A stretch of 64,000 bases of DNA, from positions 62,001 through 126,000 of the forward strand of contig CAJXSK010000003.1 in the NCBI GenBank assembly GCA_913061075.1, in the 5' to 3' direction. The DNA is from an uncultured Piscirickettsiaceae bacterium. GTDB taxonomy: Bacteria; Pseudomonadota; Gammaproteobacteria; Methylococcales; Cycloclasticaceae. Every line of letters begins with the position of its first letter. The first letter of the stretch is position 1. Under the pieces are notes generated by a model. That model was not told where the DNA came from, searched no databases, and saw nothing but the letters and a program-made list of their open reading frames with translations. Shown piece after piece: positions 54,111 to 59,005 of the stretch. The position numbers and the translations under genes are program-made.

Positions 54111-54917
54111 TTAGGTTTTCTCTAACCAGTTAGTAATAACATCGGCACTTTCCTGCCAATTTGAATCAAGCATCATGGTGTGGCTGGTTTTTTTCATGTT
54201 GATGTAGGTTGCGTCGTATGCCTCAGCAGTTTTTTTAATTTGATTCGGCCTGAAGAATGTGTCTTCATCTGCGCCTAATGACAGCATGGGGATTTTAAAA
54301 GGGTTTTTCTTTGTGGGTAGGCCTAACCATAGGGTGTCCAACAGTGCTTTAGGTGAGCTGGGTTGCATTTCTGTGCAATATTTAATGACGACAGCATCGT
54401 TAACGTCACCTGAAAAGATAGAGTTGCGTGTCACATCAACACCTGAAAACCACGTACCAAATAATTGGCTTAGGTTGTATTGCATAAACACAGTGGGGTT
54501 GAGAAAAAGATCCATGACTGACGGCATTAACCCATCAACTGGAACTGAAGCCATTAATACGCAAGCTGGAACGGTGTTATGTTCGATAAACTTCTGAATA
54601 ACTAAACCACCTAAAGAATGGCCAATTAATATGGGTGGCTCTCCAATTTCATCAATAACACGCTGAATGTCTGTTACATAATCAGCAATACTATTGCCGG
54701 ATAACTGTTCTTGACCGCCGCTTTTTCCGTGGCCACGTAAGTCAACGGCATAGGTTGGGTGTCCAAGGTCTGAATAAAAGGGCATAAAATGTTCATTCCA
54801 GCACCACCCAGACATATTGGCACCATGTATAAACAAAATGGGTGTCTTAGTTGGTTTAGCTGGGAGGTGTTCAATTACATGTAAATTTGGGTGTTCTTGT
54901 GAGCGTTCGATTTGCAT
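54111..54917 (-). CDS. Alpha/beta-hydrolase (putative monoacylglycerol lipase/esterase)
   Basis: 268 residues. Oxyanion HGANMSGWCW near residue 33, the nucleophile elbow IGHSLGG (Ser about 102), an acid candidate in GADEDTFF and the catalytic His in KKTSHTMM near the C-terminus. VDLRGHGKSGG matches lysophospholipase/haloperoxidase-like esterases. No signal peptide, so cytoplasmic. Convergent with gdhB (41 bp). Upstream lies a strong promoter overlapped by a perfect palindrome, which suggests a specific repressor, but no regulator is encoded next to it. Substrate unknown. Confidence 0.88.
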   Translation of the reverse strand: MQIERSQEHPNLHVIEHLPAKPTKTPILFIHGANMSGWCWNEHFMPFYSDLGHPTYAVDLRGHGKSGGQEQLSGNSIADYVTDIQRVIDEIGEPPILIGHSLGGLVIQKFIEHNTVPACVLMASVPVDGLMPSVMDLFLNPTVFMQYNLSQLFGTWFSGVDVTRNSIFSGDVNDAVVIKYCTEMQPSSPKALLDTLWLGLPTKKNPFKIPMLSLGADEDTFFRPNQIKKTAEAYDATYINMKKTSHTMMLDSNWQESADVITNWLEKT

Positions 54918-55021: not shown

Positions 55022-55050
55022 TTGACAAATATTGCAGAGCAGTATATCAT
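55022..55050 (+). promoter_or_regulatory. Strong sigma-70 promoter of the candidate small RNA
   Basis: Perfect -35 TTGACA (55022-55027), exactly 17 bp, and -10 TATCAT (5 of 6, 55045-55050). It is the best promoter match in the non-ribosomal part of the window and leads straight into a structured, terminated RNA with no usable reading frame. Confidence 0.72.
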
Positions 55051-55056
55051 CTCTAT

Positions 55057-55147
55057 CACATTGTTACAGCAGGTCTTATTTTAGATACTGCTACTGTGTG
55101 ATAATGTTCTCCTCCTCTCAGCGACTCTTTATGGGTCGCTTTTTTTT
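55057..55147 (+). ncRNA. Candidate small RNA or terminated leader RNA (about 90 nt)
   Basis: Bounded by the promoter at 55022-55050 and an intrinsic terminator ending at 55147. The 5' part folds into an interrupted stem: ATCACA (55055-55060) with TGTGAT (55097-55102), AGCAG (55068-55072) with CTGCT (55088-55092), and TCT (55074-55076) with AGA (55083-55085). A single-stranded stretch follows, containing CTCCTCCTCTC (55109-55119), which can pair with Shine-Dalgarno sequences; the terminator hairpin follows. This is the layout of a trans-acting, Hfq-type sRNA. Because the PQQ-associated operon begins 160 bp downstream, a leader with conditional termination is an alternative. No known family recognised. 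Confidence 0.6.
55120..55147 (+). terminator. Intrinsic terminator of the candidate small RNA
   Basis: Stem AGCGACTC (55120-55127) with GGGTCGCT (55133-55140), 8 bp including one G-T pair, loop TTTAT, followed by T at 55140-55147. Strong Rho-independent terminator on the plus strand, lying 160 bp before the next start codon. Confidence 0.85.
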
Positions 55148-55306
55148 GCCTGTCACTTTATGTTCAGTATAGGGTAGTGGCTAGCAATAATCCGATAATA
55201 GTTAAAATGAATTAGAATATGTAACCAATTGGCTGCCCAACTATTTGGAGCGCATGATTTTAATTTATTCATAGAGGGTTAAAACTGGATGAGGATTATT
55301 TGAACA

Positions 55307-56488
55307 ATGAGAAAGAATATAACCATACAAAAGTTTCTGCCTATTCTATGTGGCCTAATGCTGGCTTTTGCAGTACATGTGCAAGCCGATGTTACTGATA
55401 TCAAAGCGGCCTTGTTAATAGAAAAAAAACCAATTCCGCCCGCCTTGTCAAATTTAGACCCTGTGTTAACGGATGAAGGCATTCAAGGTGCCAAACTAGG
55501 CATTAAAGATAACAACACAACAGGTCAGTTCACAGGGCACAGCTATACGTTGGCTATTGCAGAAGTGCCTGTAGGTGATGATGTTCGTGAGGCATTTAAT
55601 CAGCTGGTTAGCAAGGGCTACCGATACGTTATAACATCGGTAAATACAGATACATTAATAAGTTTGTCGGCACTGGCGGCAGAAAAAGGTGTGCTGTTGT
55701 TTAATATTGCTAGTGCAGATGGGAAGTTAAGAACAACCGAGTGCGGGGCAAATACCTTTCATATGTTACCTAGTTACGAAATGAAGGCAGATGCGCTCGC
55801 ACAATTCATGCTTAAAAAGCGCTGGAAAAAATGGTTTCTGGTTAAAGGGTCAGATGCAAATGATGCGTTGTTCGCAAAGGCCATTAAACGTTCTGCTAAA
55901 CGCTTTGGAGTTAAAGTGGTGGAAGAGAAAACATGGACGTTTGACCATGATGCGCGCCGAACAGCTCAGGCAGATATCCCCGTGTTCACTCAAGGCGACG
56001 ATTATGATGTGTTAGTTGTGGCGGATGTTAAAGGGTTATTCGGTGAGTATTTGCCAATGAACACATGGTTGCCGAGACCTGTTGCAGGTACTCAGGGTAT
56101 GGCACCGAGAGCTTGGCATAGAACACATGAACGATGGGGTGCAGTACAAATGCAAAATCGTTTTTATGAACAAGCTGGCCGTTGGATGACAGATGTTGAT
56201 TATTCGGCTTGGTTAGCAGTTCGTTCAATTGGTGAAGCGGTGACGCGTGCAAAAAGCCCAGACGTAAAAACGATAAAAAACTTTTTGCTGGGTGATGAGT
56301 TTAGTGTGGCAGGTTTTAAAGGCACAAGGCTAACGTTTAGAACATGGAATCATCAATTAAGGCAGCCGGTACTGTTGGCAACGCCTCGTTCAATTGTGTC
56401 AGTTATGCCTCATAAAGAATTTTTACATCCACGTACTTATTTGGATACGCTAGGTTATGATAAGCCTGAATCAAACTGCCATTTATAG
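55307..56488 (+). CDS. PQQ-associated ABC system substrate-binding protein
   Basis: 393 residues. Signal peptide with cleavage after HVQA (residue 27). The mature protein has a type-1 periplasmic binding fold (Leu/Ile/Val-receptor-like): two alternating domains with VTSVNTDTLISLSALAAEKGV and KRWKKWFLVKGSDANDALFAKA-type strands. It matches my knowledge of the TIGR03863-type family, binding proteins that occur with PQQ-dependent alcohol oxidation. Shine-Dalgarno GAGG at 55291 is rather distant (12 bp). First gene of a four-gene operon. The ligand is unknown. Confidence 0.85.
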   Translation: MRKNITIQKFLPILCGLMLAFAVHVQADVTDIKAALLIEKKPIPPALSNLDPVLTDEGIQGAKLGIKDNNTTGQFTGHSYTLAIAEVPVGDDVREAFNQLVSKGYRYVITSVNTDTLISLSALAAEKGVLLFNIASADGKLRTTECGANTFHMLPSYEMKADALAQFMLKKRWKKWFLVKGSDANDALFAKAIKRSAKRFGVKVVEEKTWTFDHDARRTAQADIPVFTQGDDYDVLVVADVKGLFGEYLPMNTWLPRPVAGTQGMAPRAWHRTHERWGAVQMQNRFYEQAGRWMTDVDYSAWLAVRSIGEAVTRAKSPDVKTIKNFLLGDEFSVAGFKGTRLTFRTWNHQLRQPVLLATPRSIVSVMPHKEFLHPRTYLDTLGYDKPESNCHL

Positions 56489-56499
56489 AAACAATACGA

Positions 56500-57471
56500 A
56501 TGAAGAATATGATTAAAATAACACTTATAACGTTAGCGCTTTTAATTTCCTCACCAATGAGTTTAGCGGATACGCTATACATTACGCTTGAAAAAGATAA
56601 TGCACTGGCTGTAGTAGATGGAGAAACAGGAAAGTTGCTGAAAACAGCACCGTTGGGTCAGCGCCCACGTGGTATCGCGTTAAGTGAAGATGAAACGCAG
56701 TTATATGTTGCGGCGAGTGATGACGATACGATACAAATTATTGATATTAAAACATTGAAAGTCGTCGGTAATTTGCCAGCAGGCGAAGACCCGGAAACGT
56801 TTCGCCTGCACCCCGCAGGGCAATTTATCTATGTTTCAAATGAAGATGATAATATCGTTACAGTCATTGATGTCGATAAAAAAGAGGCCGTAACAGAAAT
56901 TGCTGTGGGTGTTGAGCCAGAAGGAATAGCGGTGAGCGATGATGGCCAGTGGGTCGTGAATACATCTGAAACAACGAATATGGTTCATTGGATTGACCCC
57001 GTATCGAACACTATAAAAGATAATACCTTAGTCGATCCACGACCAAGAGCCGCGGCGTTTTCAACGAATGGTAGTGCCTTGTACGTTACATCGGAAATTG
57101 CGGGTACGTTGTCCAAACTAAATGTGGACACGAAACAGGTAGAAACCAAAATCGGTTTTAAAATTCCTGGCGTAGATAAAGAATTAATTCAGCCCGTGGG
57201 TGTGCTGGTGCACCCAAATGACAAGCTGTTGTTTGTCGCGTTGGGCCCAGCCAATCGTGTGGCCGTCGTTAATATGCAAACCTTTAAAGTCGAAAAGTAT
57301 TTATTGGTAGGGCAGCGTGTGTGGAACTTGGCTTTCTCGCCAGATTTGAAACGTTTATACACAACCAATGGTGTCAGTAATGATATTTCAATTGTTGATG
57401 TGGCCAGTTTAAAAGTGACTAAATCTGTTCGTGTTGGGCATTACCCTTGGGGTATTGCGGTTAAAAAATGA
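56500..57471 (+). CDS. YVTN beta-propeller protein of the PQQ-associated ABC operon
   Basis: 323 residues with a signal peptide cleaved after MSLA (residue 23), so periplasmic. The rest is a seven-bladed propeller of about 42-residue YVTN repeats; blade ends read LYVAASDDDTIQIID, IYVSNEDDNIVTVID, LYVTSEIAGTLSKLN, LFVALGPANRVAVVN and LYTTNGVSNDISIVD. This is the TIGR03866-type protein found invariably in this transport operon. It starts 11 bp after the binding-protein gene and overlaps the ATPase gene by 4 bp (ATGA). Role unknown; a periplasmic scaffold or sensor is conjecture. Confidence 0.88.
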   Translation: MKNMIKITLITLALLISSPMSLADTLYITLEKDNALAVVDGETGKLLKTAPLGQRPRGIALSEDETQLYVAASDDDTIQIIDIKTLKVVGNLPAGEDPETFRLHPAGQFIYVSNEDDNIVTVIDVDKKEAVTEIAVGVEPEGIAVSDDGQWVVNTSETTNMVHWIDPVSNTIKDNTLVDPRPRAAAFSTNGSALYVTSEIAGTLSKLNVDTKQVETKIGFKIPGVDKELIQPVGVLVHPNDKLLFVALGPANRVAVVNMQTFKVEKYLLVGQRVWNLAFSPDLKRLYTTNGVSNDISIVDVASLKVTKSVRVGHYPWGIAVKK

Positions 57472-58199
57472 CACAAACGTTAGCTGTAAAAACACTAAGT
57501 TATGCCTACGGTAAAAAGGCCGCATTAAGTAATATCGATTTTAGTATCGATGCGGGCGAATGTACTATTTTGCTCGGACCAAATGGTGCGGGCAAAACGA
57601 CGCTGTTTTCGCTTATTACACATTTGTATAACAGCCGTGATGGTCAAATATTAATTAATGGTTTTGATGTAAAGAAAGATTCTTGTAAGGCATTGGCTAA
57701 TTTAGGGGTGGTATTTCAACAAACCACACTCGATATGGATCTCAGTGTGTTGCAAAATTTACATTACCATGCGTCTTTGCACGGCATGACGCGTAAGCAA
57801 GCGTCAGCTCGAATTGAAGAAGAATTAGAACGGCAGGGAATGTTGGAGCGTCAACATGAAAAAGTTCGTCAGCTCAATGGTGGGCATCGCCGACGGGTGG
57901 AAATTGCTCGTGCGCTGTTGCATAAGCCGTCTTTATTACTGCTTGATGAGCCGACTGTCGGCTTAGATGTGCCGAGCAGAAAAGGCATTGTTGAGCATGT
58001 ACATTCGTTATGTGAAAACGATGGTTTGTCTGTGCTTTGGGCTACGCATTTAATTGATGAAATTTACCCTTCAGATAATGTCATTGTTCTTCATCAGGGT
58101 AATGTTAAGGCGCAGGGTTCAGTTGATGGTGTGTGTGCCGAGCAGGCGACAACAGACATTGCGCAAGCTTTTCAGCAATTAACGGCGGTAAAAAAATGA
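57468..58199 (+). CDS. PQQ-associated ABC transporter ATP-binding protein
   Basis: 243 residues. Walker A GPNGAGKTTLF, Walker B LLLLDEPTVGLD and the H-loop in WATHLIDEI are canonical. The signature motif is LNGGHRRRVEIAR rather than LSGGQ, typical of exporter-type (DrrA/NodI-like) ATPases. Corresponds to the TIGR03864-type family. Starts in a 4-bp overlap with the propeller gene and overlaps the permease by 4 bp, so the last three genes are translationally coupled. Confidence 0.9.
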   Translation: MTQTLAVKTLSYAYGKKAALSNIDFSIDAGECTILLGPNGAGKTTLFSLITHLYNSRDGQILINGFDVKKDSCKALANLGVVFQQTTLDMDLSVLQNLHYHASLHGMTRKQASARIEEELERQGMLERQHEKVRQLNGGHRRRVEIARALLHKPSLLLLDEPTVGLDVPSRKGIVEHVHSLCENDGLSVLWATHLIDEIYPSDNVIVLHQGNVKAQGSVDGVCAEQATTDIAQAFQQLTAVKK

Positions 58200-59005
58200 C
58201 ATTAACGCACGGTGTTATCGCTTTAAAAGGAATTATTAAGCGTGAATTATGGCGTTTTTTGCGTCAACGGGAGCGTTTTATTGCGGCGCTTGTTCGTCCG
58301 TTAGTTTGGTTGTTTGTTTTCGCTGCCGGTTTTCGCTCTACGCTGGGCATCGCTATTATCCCTCCGTATGAAACGTATATATTGTATGAGGTGTACATTG
58401 CCGCGGGTTTGATCGGGATGATTCAACTATTCAACGGCATGCAAAGTTCTTTATCGATGGTATATGACCGAGAGATGGGCAGCATGAAAACCTTGTTGGT
58501 TAGCCCATTACCACGCTGGTTTTTATTAACGGGCAAGTTGTTGGCGGGTACATTTGTGTCGATATTACAGGCGTATGTTTTTCTTCTCATTGCTTGGTTC
58601 TATGATATTCAAGCGCCTTGGTTGGGGTATGTAACGTTATTTCCAGCGTTAGTCTTGGCGGGTTTAATGTTGGGTGCGTTAGGCATGTTGTTGTCGTCAT
58701 TTATCAAGCAGTTAGAGAACTTTGCGGGTGTGATGAACTTTGTTATTTTTCCCATGTTTTTTATGTCTACGGCGTTATATCCATTGTGGAAAATAAAAGA
58801 ATCCAGCGAATTGTTGTTTACATTAGCAAGCTATAACCCATTTTCTCAAGCGATTGAATTAATACGGTTTGCGTTGTATGGGCAATTTAACCTGTATGCC
58901 TTTGTGTACACGTTAGTGGCGTTTGTTGTGTTTATGATGATCGCTGTATGGGGTTATAACCCGTCAAAAGGCATGATGGTTAAGAAGGGTGGTGGCCCTA
59001 GGTGA
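58196..59005 (+). CDS. PQQ-associated ABC-2 type permease (PedC-like)
   Basis: 269 residues from ATG 58196 (MTLTHGVIALKGIIKRELWRF), overlapping the ATPase stop (ATGA). The longer frame from 58133 lies inside the ATPase gene. Six membrane segments; ABC-2 signature YDREMGSMKTLLVSPLPRWF and the NFAGVMNFVIFPMFFMS segment are typical of NodJ/DrrB-like exporters. Family knowledge: TIGR03861-type, named after PedC of the Pseudomonas phenylethanol (ped) cluster. Ends 28 bp before miaB, so read-through into miaB is possible. Confidence 0.88.
   Translation: MTLTHGVIALKGIIKRELWRFLRQRERFIAALVRPLVWLFVFAAGFRSTLGIAIIPPYETYILYEVYIAAGLIGMIQLFNGMQSSLSMVYDREMGSMKTLLVSPLPRWFLLTGKLLAGTFVSILQAYVFLLIAWFYDIQAPWLGYVTLFPALVLAGLMLGALGMLLSSFIKQLENFAGVMNFVIFPMFFMSTALYPLWKIKESSELLFTLASYNPFSQAIELIRFALYGQFNLYAFVYTLVAFVVFMMIAVWGYNPSKGMMVKKGGGPR

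Follow-up and report, generated by a model that had tools for sequence, protein, structure and literature searches.

Positions 55022-55147 of the window, by which we mean the whole 64,000-nt stretch of DNA analysed (G000:C3:62001-126000 within a 2.26-Mb Cycloclasticus genome), almost certainly hold a conserved RNA gene. Its best explanation, to which we assign a probability of roughly 0.7, is a free-standing small RNA (sRNA) of about 90 nt with an anti-Shine-Dalgarno (anti-SD) seed, which, judging from the sequence, would be repressed by PhaR and released upon PHB accumulation. The locus is situated between a divergently oriented α/β hydrolase gene (54111-54917, minus strand), which serves as a marker of conserved synteny, and a PQQ-ABC operon (55307-59005, plus strand) encoding substrate-binding, beta-propeller, ATPase and permease components (TIGR03863, TIGR03866, TIGR03864 and TIGR03861, all above cut-off). 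The operon lies outside the RNA unit, with its first gene starting at 55307, at the distance of 160 nt given in the preliminary description. Genome-wide readings refer to stretches covering 97% of the genome.

Anatomy of the RNA gene

All elements of the gene are on the plus strand. The near-consensus promoter recognized earlier is borne out with 11/12 matches and comprises a −35 hexamer TTGACA (55022-55027; TTGAC is kept in 15/16 genus members), a 17-nt spacer and a −10 hexamer TATCAT (55045-55050), from whose spacing an RNA of about 90 nt is predicted to begin at 55057 and end at 55147. The predicted transcript opens with a 5′ hairpin (55058-55107) consisting of a 10-bp outer stem (55058-55067/55098-55107) and a variable apical stem-loop. 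This is followed by the anti-SD single strand UUCUCCUCCUCUC (55107-55119), within which the CU-rich CTCCTCCTCTC at 55109-55119 is unpaired in every predicted fold, as had been proposed. The molecule closes with an intrinsic terminator, AGCGACTC-TTTAT-GGGTCGCT plus eight T (55120-55147), in which the 8-bp stem (55120-55140) and the T run (55140-55147) agree with the earlier reading.

The region 55050-55150 folds at −31.4 kcal/mol compared with −15.4 ± 2.9 for 200 dinucleotide shuffles, none of which was as good (z −5.5). The interrupted stem-loop of the preliminary description is therefore a real hairpin, but its register (55055-55102) is an alternative favoured by single-sequence folding of a longer stretch and is not the one conserved in the genus. 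Promoter and terminator scans alone were at chance level (3 found vs 2.8 expected, and 1 vs 0.6, respectively), so it is the fold z-score together with conservation that raises the locus above chance. A σ54 reading of TTGAC...TTGC was rejected on inspection for its wrong spacing, and a search for a phage origin returned no match.

Conservation within Cycloclasticus

The sRNA gene is present in 16 of the 18 Cycloclasticus genomes, and the remaining two are incomplete assemblies, one entirely lacking the neighbouring substrate-binding protein gene and the other carrying a fragment of it. By BLAST it is found in 15/17 genus relatives at 72-80% identity. A covariance model (R2) scores the sRNA of our genome at 98.9 bits (E 2.3e-16), a value to be read knowing that this sequence is part of the model's building set. 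All 16 sequences share a common fold: a hairpin whose outer stem is 10 bp long, then UUCUCCUCCUC left unpaired, then a terminator with an 8-bp stem and a T run. Across the genus, pairwise identity averages 0.85 for the −35 hexamer, 0.76 for the spacer, 0.91 and 0.78 for the 5′ and 3′ arms, 0.45 for the apical loop, 0.93 for the anti-SD, 0.91 for the terminator and 0.35 just downstream. The apical loop and flanks drift, and conservation in the 16 genomes is confined to promoter, stems, anti-SD and terminator. This block profile points to a transcription unit of its own whose single-stranded seed is functional; the seed is altered in one relative, G007 (UUCCCCUUCUC).

The hairpin retains 97.5% of pair cells among the 16 relatives, mainly through G-U/G-C/A-U exchange and with a double change at one pair, and the terminator retains 99% with two compensatory pairs. 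For both stems together the figure is 98.3% (shuffles: 96.7 ± 0.3%), with covariation higher than in any shuffle or slide; as most changes are one-sided, we regard this covariation as moderate rather than decisive. Conservation of the stems and of the CU-rich stretch in relatives, on which the preliminary description had staked its proposal, is found for both. Its remark that no known family is recognizable also holds, since Rfam 15 contains no match to the sRNA at the gathering score or at E up to 5.

That the locus encodes a small protein, with translation beginning at a conserved AUG (55104), is scarcely credible. The triplets AUG-UUC-UCC do occur in most Cycloclasticus, but 1-nt indels between relatives shift the frame, no Shine-Dalgarno sequence precedes it, it runs across the terminator and the AUG is absent in other families, in keeping with the original statement that there is no usable reading frame. 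With its own promoter, its own intrinsic terminator, conserved structure and no conserved reading frame, the locus has the features sought in a trans-acting sRNA.

Relation to the PQQ-ABC operon

The preliminary description had offered as its alternative a terminated 5′ leader, or attenuator, controlling in cis the operon 160 nt downstream. In favour of such a leader, the RNA and this operon are syntenic in almost every Cycloclasticus genome, as well as in the sister family (f7) and a single Methylococcaceae genome. A leader should always lie directly upstream of the operon and be co-transcribed with it; in G016, however, the RNA is on contig C70 and the operon on C73, with no RNA-like match in the operon's upstream region, and the Methylothermaceae copies of the RNA stand in front of tRNA genes. 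Sequence conservation is low from the terminator to the operon, and inspection found no upstream sequence able to pair with the 5′ arm of the terminator as an antiterminator. We consider cis control of the operon very unlikely, and the sRNA is very probably free-standing and would act in trans, being independent of its neighbouring genes in G016 and the Methylothermaceae.

A probable PhaR operator in the promoter

Between the −35 and −10 hexamers lies an element absent from the preliminary description that provides a probable signal for the RNA, namely the putative PhaR operator TATTGCAGAGCAG (55030-55042, plus strand) with its core TGC-N3-GCA at 55033-55041. The core is found in 16 of 18 sRNA promoters (14/16 in the genus and 2/2 in the sister family) and is damaged in two relatives, G007 and G012. 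When the columns of the spacer were permuted across the 18 promoters, 0 of 20000 permutations were as good as the observed conservation. A dyad search of our genome led to a phasin gene, and in the genus 28/30 phasin promoters carry TGnTGCnnnGCAA or a close form (TGnTGCn3GCAA), most often TGTTGCnnnGCAATAT at a position some 65-90 nt upstream of the ATG. As background, TGCN3GCA[AG] occurs within 120 nt of 1.5% of gene starts (22/1472). A position-weight scan alone is unspecific, with the phasin site among its few high-scoring intergenic matches. The element is near the −35 hexamer in phasin promoters and adjoins the −10 hexamer in the RNA promoter, and this difference in position marks it as an operator rather than a promoter part. 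Many Cycloclasticus phasin promoters (L346-L357) also have a second TGC/GCAACA element directly after the −10 hexamer (TATAATGCACTGCAACAAAG).

The Cycloclasticus element is identical to the footprint-confirmed consensus TG[N]TGC[N]3GCAA of PhbF (PhaR) from Herbaspirillum and resembles the Rhodobacter site CTGC[N]3GCAG (PMC3206438) and the Bradyrhizobium site TGCRNYGCASMA (PMC6201568). PhaR is encoded in our genome at G000:C2:317203 (TIGR01848 and PF07879 above cut-off), and strict sites lie 27 nt before the start of the class I PHA synthase gene phaC (TIGR01838), 51 nt before that of a BktB-type thiolase and just upstream of two phasins. Strict PhaR-type sites also precede genes for a 99-aa PilZ-like protein (G000:C2:146663, minus strand) and a 640-aa exported porin-like protein (G000:C5:3863, minus strand), and by their sites these are possible further members of the PhaR regulon.

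An alternative is that the RNA is a trans-acting anti-SD sRNA without PhaR control, the dyad in the spacer serving another regulator or being a feature of the promoter. The site in our genome is indeed imperfect, with two flanking mismatches to the strict consensus (TA for TG, GCAG for GCAA), and in Methylococcaceae (f4), Methylothermaceae (f6) and Methylomonadaceae (f8) the RNAs sharing this 3′ type lack the TGC-N3-GCA site and have other dyads upstream, so that PhaR control does not extend to the family as a whole. Against this reading stand the element's identity to the operator of the phasin genes within this genus and the permutation result, and we regard it as unlikely. Given a putative operator that overlaps the core promoter and a genome that codes for both PHB synthase and PhaR, the sRNA is, on present sequence evidence, likely to be PhaR-controlled in Cycloclasticus, a reading we hold with good confidence.

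Related RNAs beyond the genus

A model of the 3′ module, comprising anti-SD and terminator (R1), matches 46 of 301 genomes of the order Methylococcales at E ≤ 1e-9, divided among Cycloclasticus (f1, 16), Methylococcaceae including Methylocaldum and Methylotetracoccus (f4, 20), Methylothermaceae (f6, 8) and the sister family (f7, 2). Weaker copies, often tandem, occur in f8, which we take to be Methylomonadaceae. In a sample of 369 genomes of the class, our genome alone reaches 1e-9, followed by G261, whose four copies score 5e-9 to 4e-7, and G361, whose tandem pair scores 3e-5 to 7e-5; an exact-pattern scan of the same 369 genomes found our genome only. The 3′ half is thus recurrent across Methylococcales, often as tandem siblings, and rare in other Gammaproteobacteria. 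It is nearly invariant between families (UUCUCCUCCUC, GGCGACC-loop-GGUCGC, U8, GCC), the anti-SD being near-identical in four families of the order, whereas the 5′ halves differ.

Credible matches of the pattern scan beyond Cycloclasticus belong to Methylococcales. Matches in Aromatoleum/Azoarcus were rejected as RNA genes, since there the matching sequence is antisense to a strong ribosome binding site preceding an ATG. A near-unchanged Methylocaldum-type RNA is borne by a contig of a MAG labelled Methyloversatilis universalis (L064). This contig probably comes from a methanotroph, having been mis-binned or mislabelled, and is apparently present within the order as G443 as well.

Several of these relatives have further elements of their own. 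In Methylococcaceae (L112-L115, L117, L123-L125), a second and longer CU-rich element, TCCTCCTCTTTGACGACTC...GTCTAAAG, is located about 200 nt downstream of the RNA and is perhaps a longer sibling RNA, and in L112, L018 and L124 the promoter of the related RNA is preceded, at a distance of about 40-60 nt, by another dyad, TCATAAGA-n3-TCTTATGA. In f8 genomes (L107 = G040:C1:326275-326511, L108, L109, L111), tandem sibling RNAs end in AUAUCCUUCUCUUU plus terminator, and each is preceded by a long conserved element, GCGACAATCTGCC[AG]CGCGGCAATnTGCCACATT, which we take to resemble RegA/PrrA-type response-regulator sites. In G261 (L318-L320) and G361 (L321), which belong to other gammaproteobacterial families, there are several related anti-SD/terminator modules, including tandem pairs, with PhaR-like sites (TGCAATGCAACA, TGTTGCGGCGCAA). 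Those of the G261 tandem pair (TGCAATGCAA and TGTTGCGGCGCAA) and of the G361 pair (TGCAATGCAA and TGCAACGCAA) are close to the presumed promoter.

Proposed action and targets

PhaR acts as a repressor at phasin promoters, and PHB granules sequester it (PMC12542648); for this reason the sRNA would be expected to rise with PHB. Under carbon excess, accumulating PHB would draw PhaR onto granules and off the TGC-N3-GCA site between the −35 and −10 hexamers, and the sRNA would then be made together with the phasins. Hfq, encoded at G000:C10:1020-1205, would probably hold the RNA by its U-rich terminator tail; Hfq-type sRNAs are expected to have a tail of seven or more U, here represented by eight T. 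The exposed UUCUCCUCCUC could pair with purine-rich Shine-Dalgarno regions and so lower the translation of a set of mRNAs, presumably those of carbon-uptake and catabolic genes, during carbon surplus. By analogy, translational repression through the anti-SD is a likely mode of action, because an extended anti-SD single strand has been proven by mutation to be the working seed both of NmsRA/NmsRB (PMC5362039) and of AbcR1/2 (PMC8844928), and because Hfq is present.

Target prediction used duplex energies over 1472 gene starts together with seed-complement patterns, and its candidates were not statistically separable from generally strong Shine-Dalgarno sequences and formed no clear enriched class. 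Ribosome-binding sites complementary to the seed were not clearly commoner in our genome than the reversed pattern (50 vs 44), leaving particular targets unsupported. The candidate partners, with names derived partly from sequence inspection and no claim made for any of them, include a TmoA-like monooxygenase (GAGGAGAACAATATG), a ring-hydroxylating dioxygenase beta subunit (GGAGGAGAAGTAAGATG) with a strong Shine-Dalgarno sequence in 11 orthologues, a particulate-monooxygenase-like subunit, cytochrome c1 and FadD. The phasin mRNAs, which are among the genes affected by the alphaproteobacterial sRNA MmgR, are poor predicted partners (−7.7 and −9.1 kcal/mol vs a median of −6.3). The lack of an enriched class would suit a sponge, titrating a protein or a second RNA instead of pairing with mRNAs, but an extended single-stranded anti-SD is a tested pairing seed in the NmsR and AbcR RNAs and no repeated protein-binding motif was noticed, which makes a sponge quite unlikely.

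Comparison with known anti-SD RNAs

The closest parallel for the proposed mRNA-pairing, PhaR-repressed sRNA is MmgR (alpha-r8) of Sinorhizobium meliloti, an Hfq-type anti-SD sRNA linked to PHB storage and repressed by PhaR/AniA via a dyad between −35 and −10 (PMC8401924, PMC7143759, PMC12542648), an arrangement predicted here from sequence. MmgR differs in being alphaproteobacterial and 77 nt long, with three stem-loops and the anti-SD in the loop of the first hairpin, whereas the Cycloclasticus RNA has one hairpin and a terminator with the anti-SD between the two. MmgR is also activated by NtrC, which is not seen for the Cycloclasticus RNA, and SuhB (RF00519), a partial MmgR homologue, gave no match at E up to 5. 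Since anti-SD position and stem number differ and no homology was found in the comparison of folds and the SuhB search, we do not file the RNA as an MmgR member; it probably works like MmgR and constitutes a separate family.

The NmsRA and NmsRB sRNAs of Neisseria meningitidis similarly have a UC-rich anti-SD single strand after the first hairpin and occur as tandem siblings, as do the Methylococcaceae and Methylomonadaceae relatives. They differ in sequence and class (Betaproteobacteria) and in having two anti-SD motifs and three stem-loops, while the Cycloclasticus RNA is single-copy within its genus; the available part of the NmsR source reports no PhaR control (PMC5362039). The rhizobial AbcR1/AbcR2 (alpha-r15) and NfeR1 (alpha-r14) RNAs share CUCCUCCC-type anti-SD seeds, which pair with the Shine-Dalgarno regions of transport and metabolic mRNAs, but have two or three anti-SD motifs per molecule, other folds and the regulators LsrB and RpoH1 (PMC8844928).

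Implications

Cycloclasticus is a hydrocarbon-eating marine bacterium and a main degrader of oil aromatics at sea. The literature searched, mostly outside subscription journals, yielded no report of sRNAs in Cycloclasticus and none on this family in methanotrophs, and as far as it shows this would be the first sRNA described in Cycloclasticus. If the proposal is true, RNA regulation would be tied to a known sensor of stored carbon, with the sRNA tuning metabolism as the store fills, and this can be tested in cultivable strains. A PhaR/anti-SD circuit shared beyond the order is a tentative idea. Equally speculative is the wider suggestion that Gammaproteobacteria possess their own PHB-sensing circuit, in which PhaR-repressed anti-SD sRNAs, in Cycloclasticus, its sister family and as tandem pairs in two unrelated families, evolved apart from MmgR and, once the carbon store has filled, may throttle catabolism, in Cycloclasticus possibly that by hydrocarbon oxygenases. 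If the combination of PhaR and an anti-SD RNA did arise separately in Alpha- and Gammaproteobacteria, it would point to a general route from a full store to reduced translation of carbon-acquiring genes.
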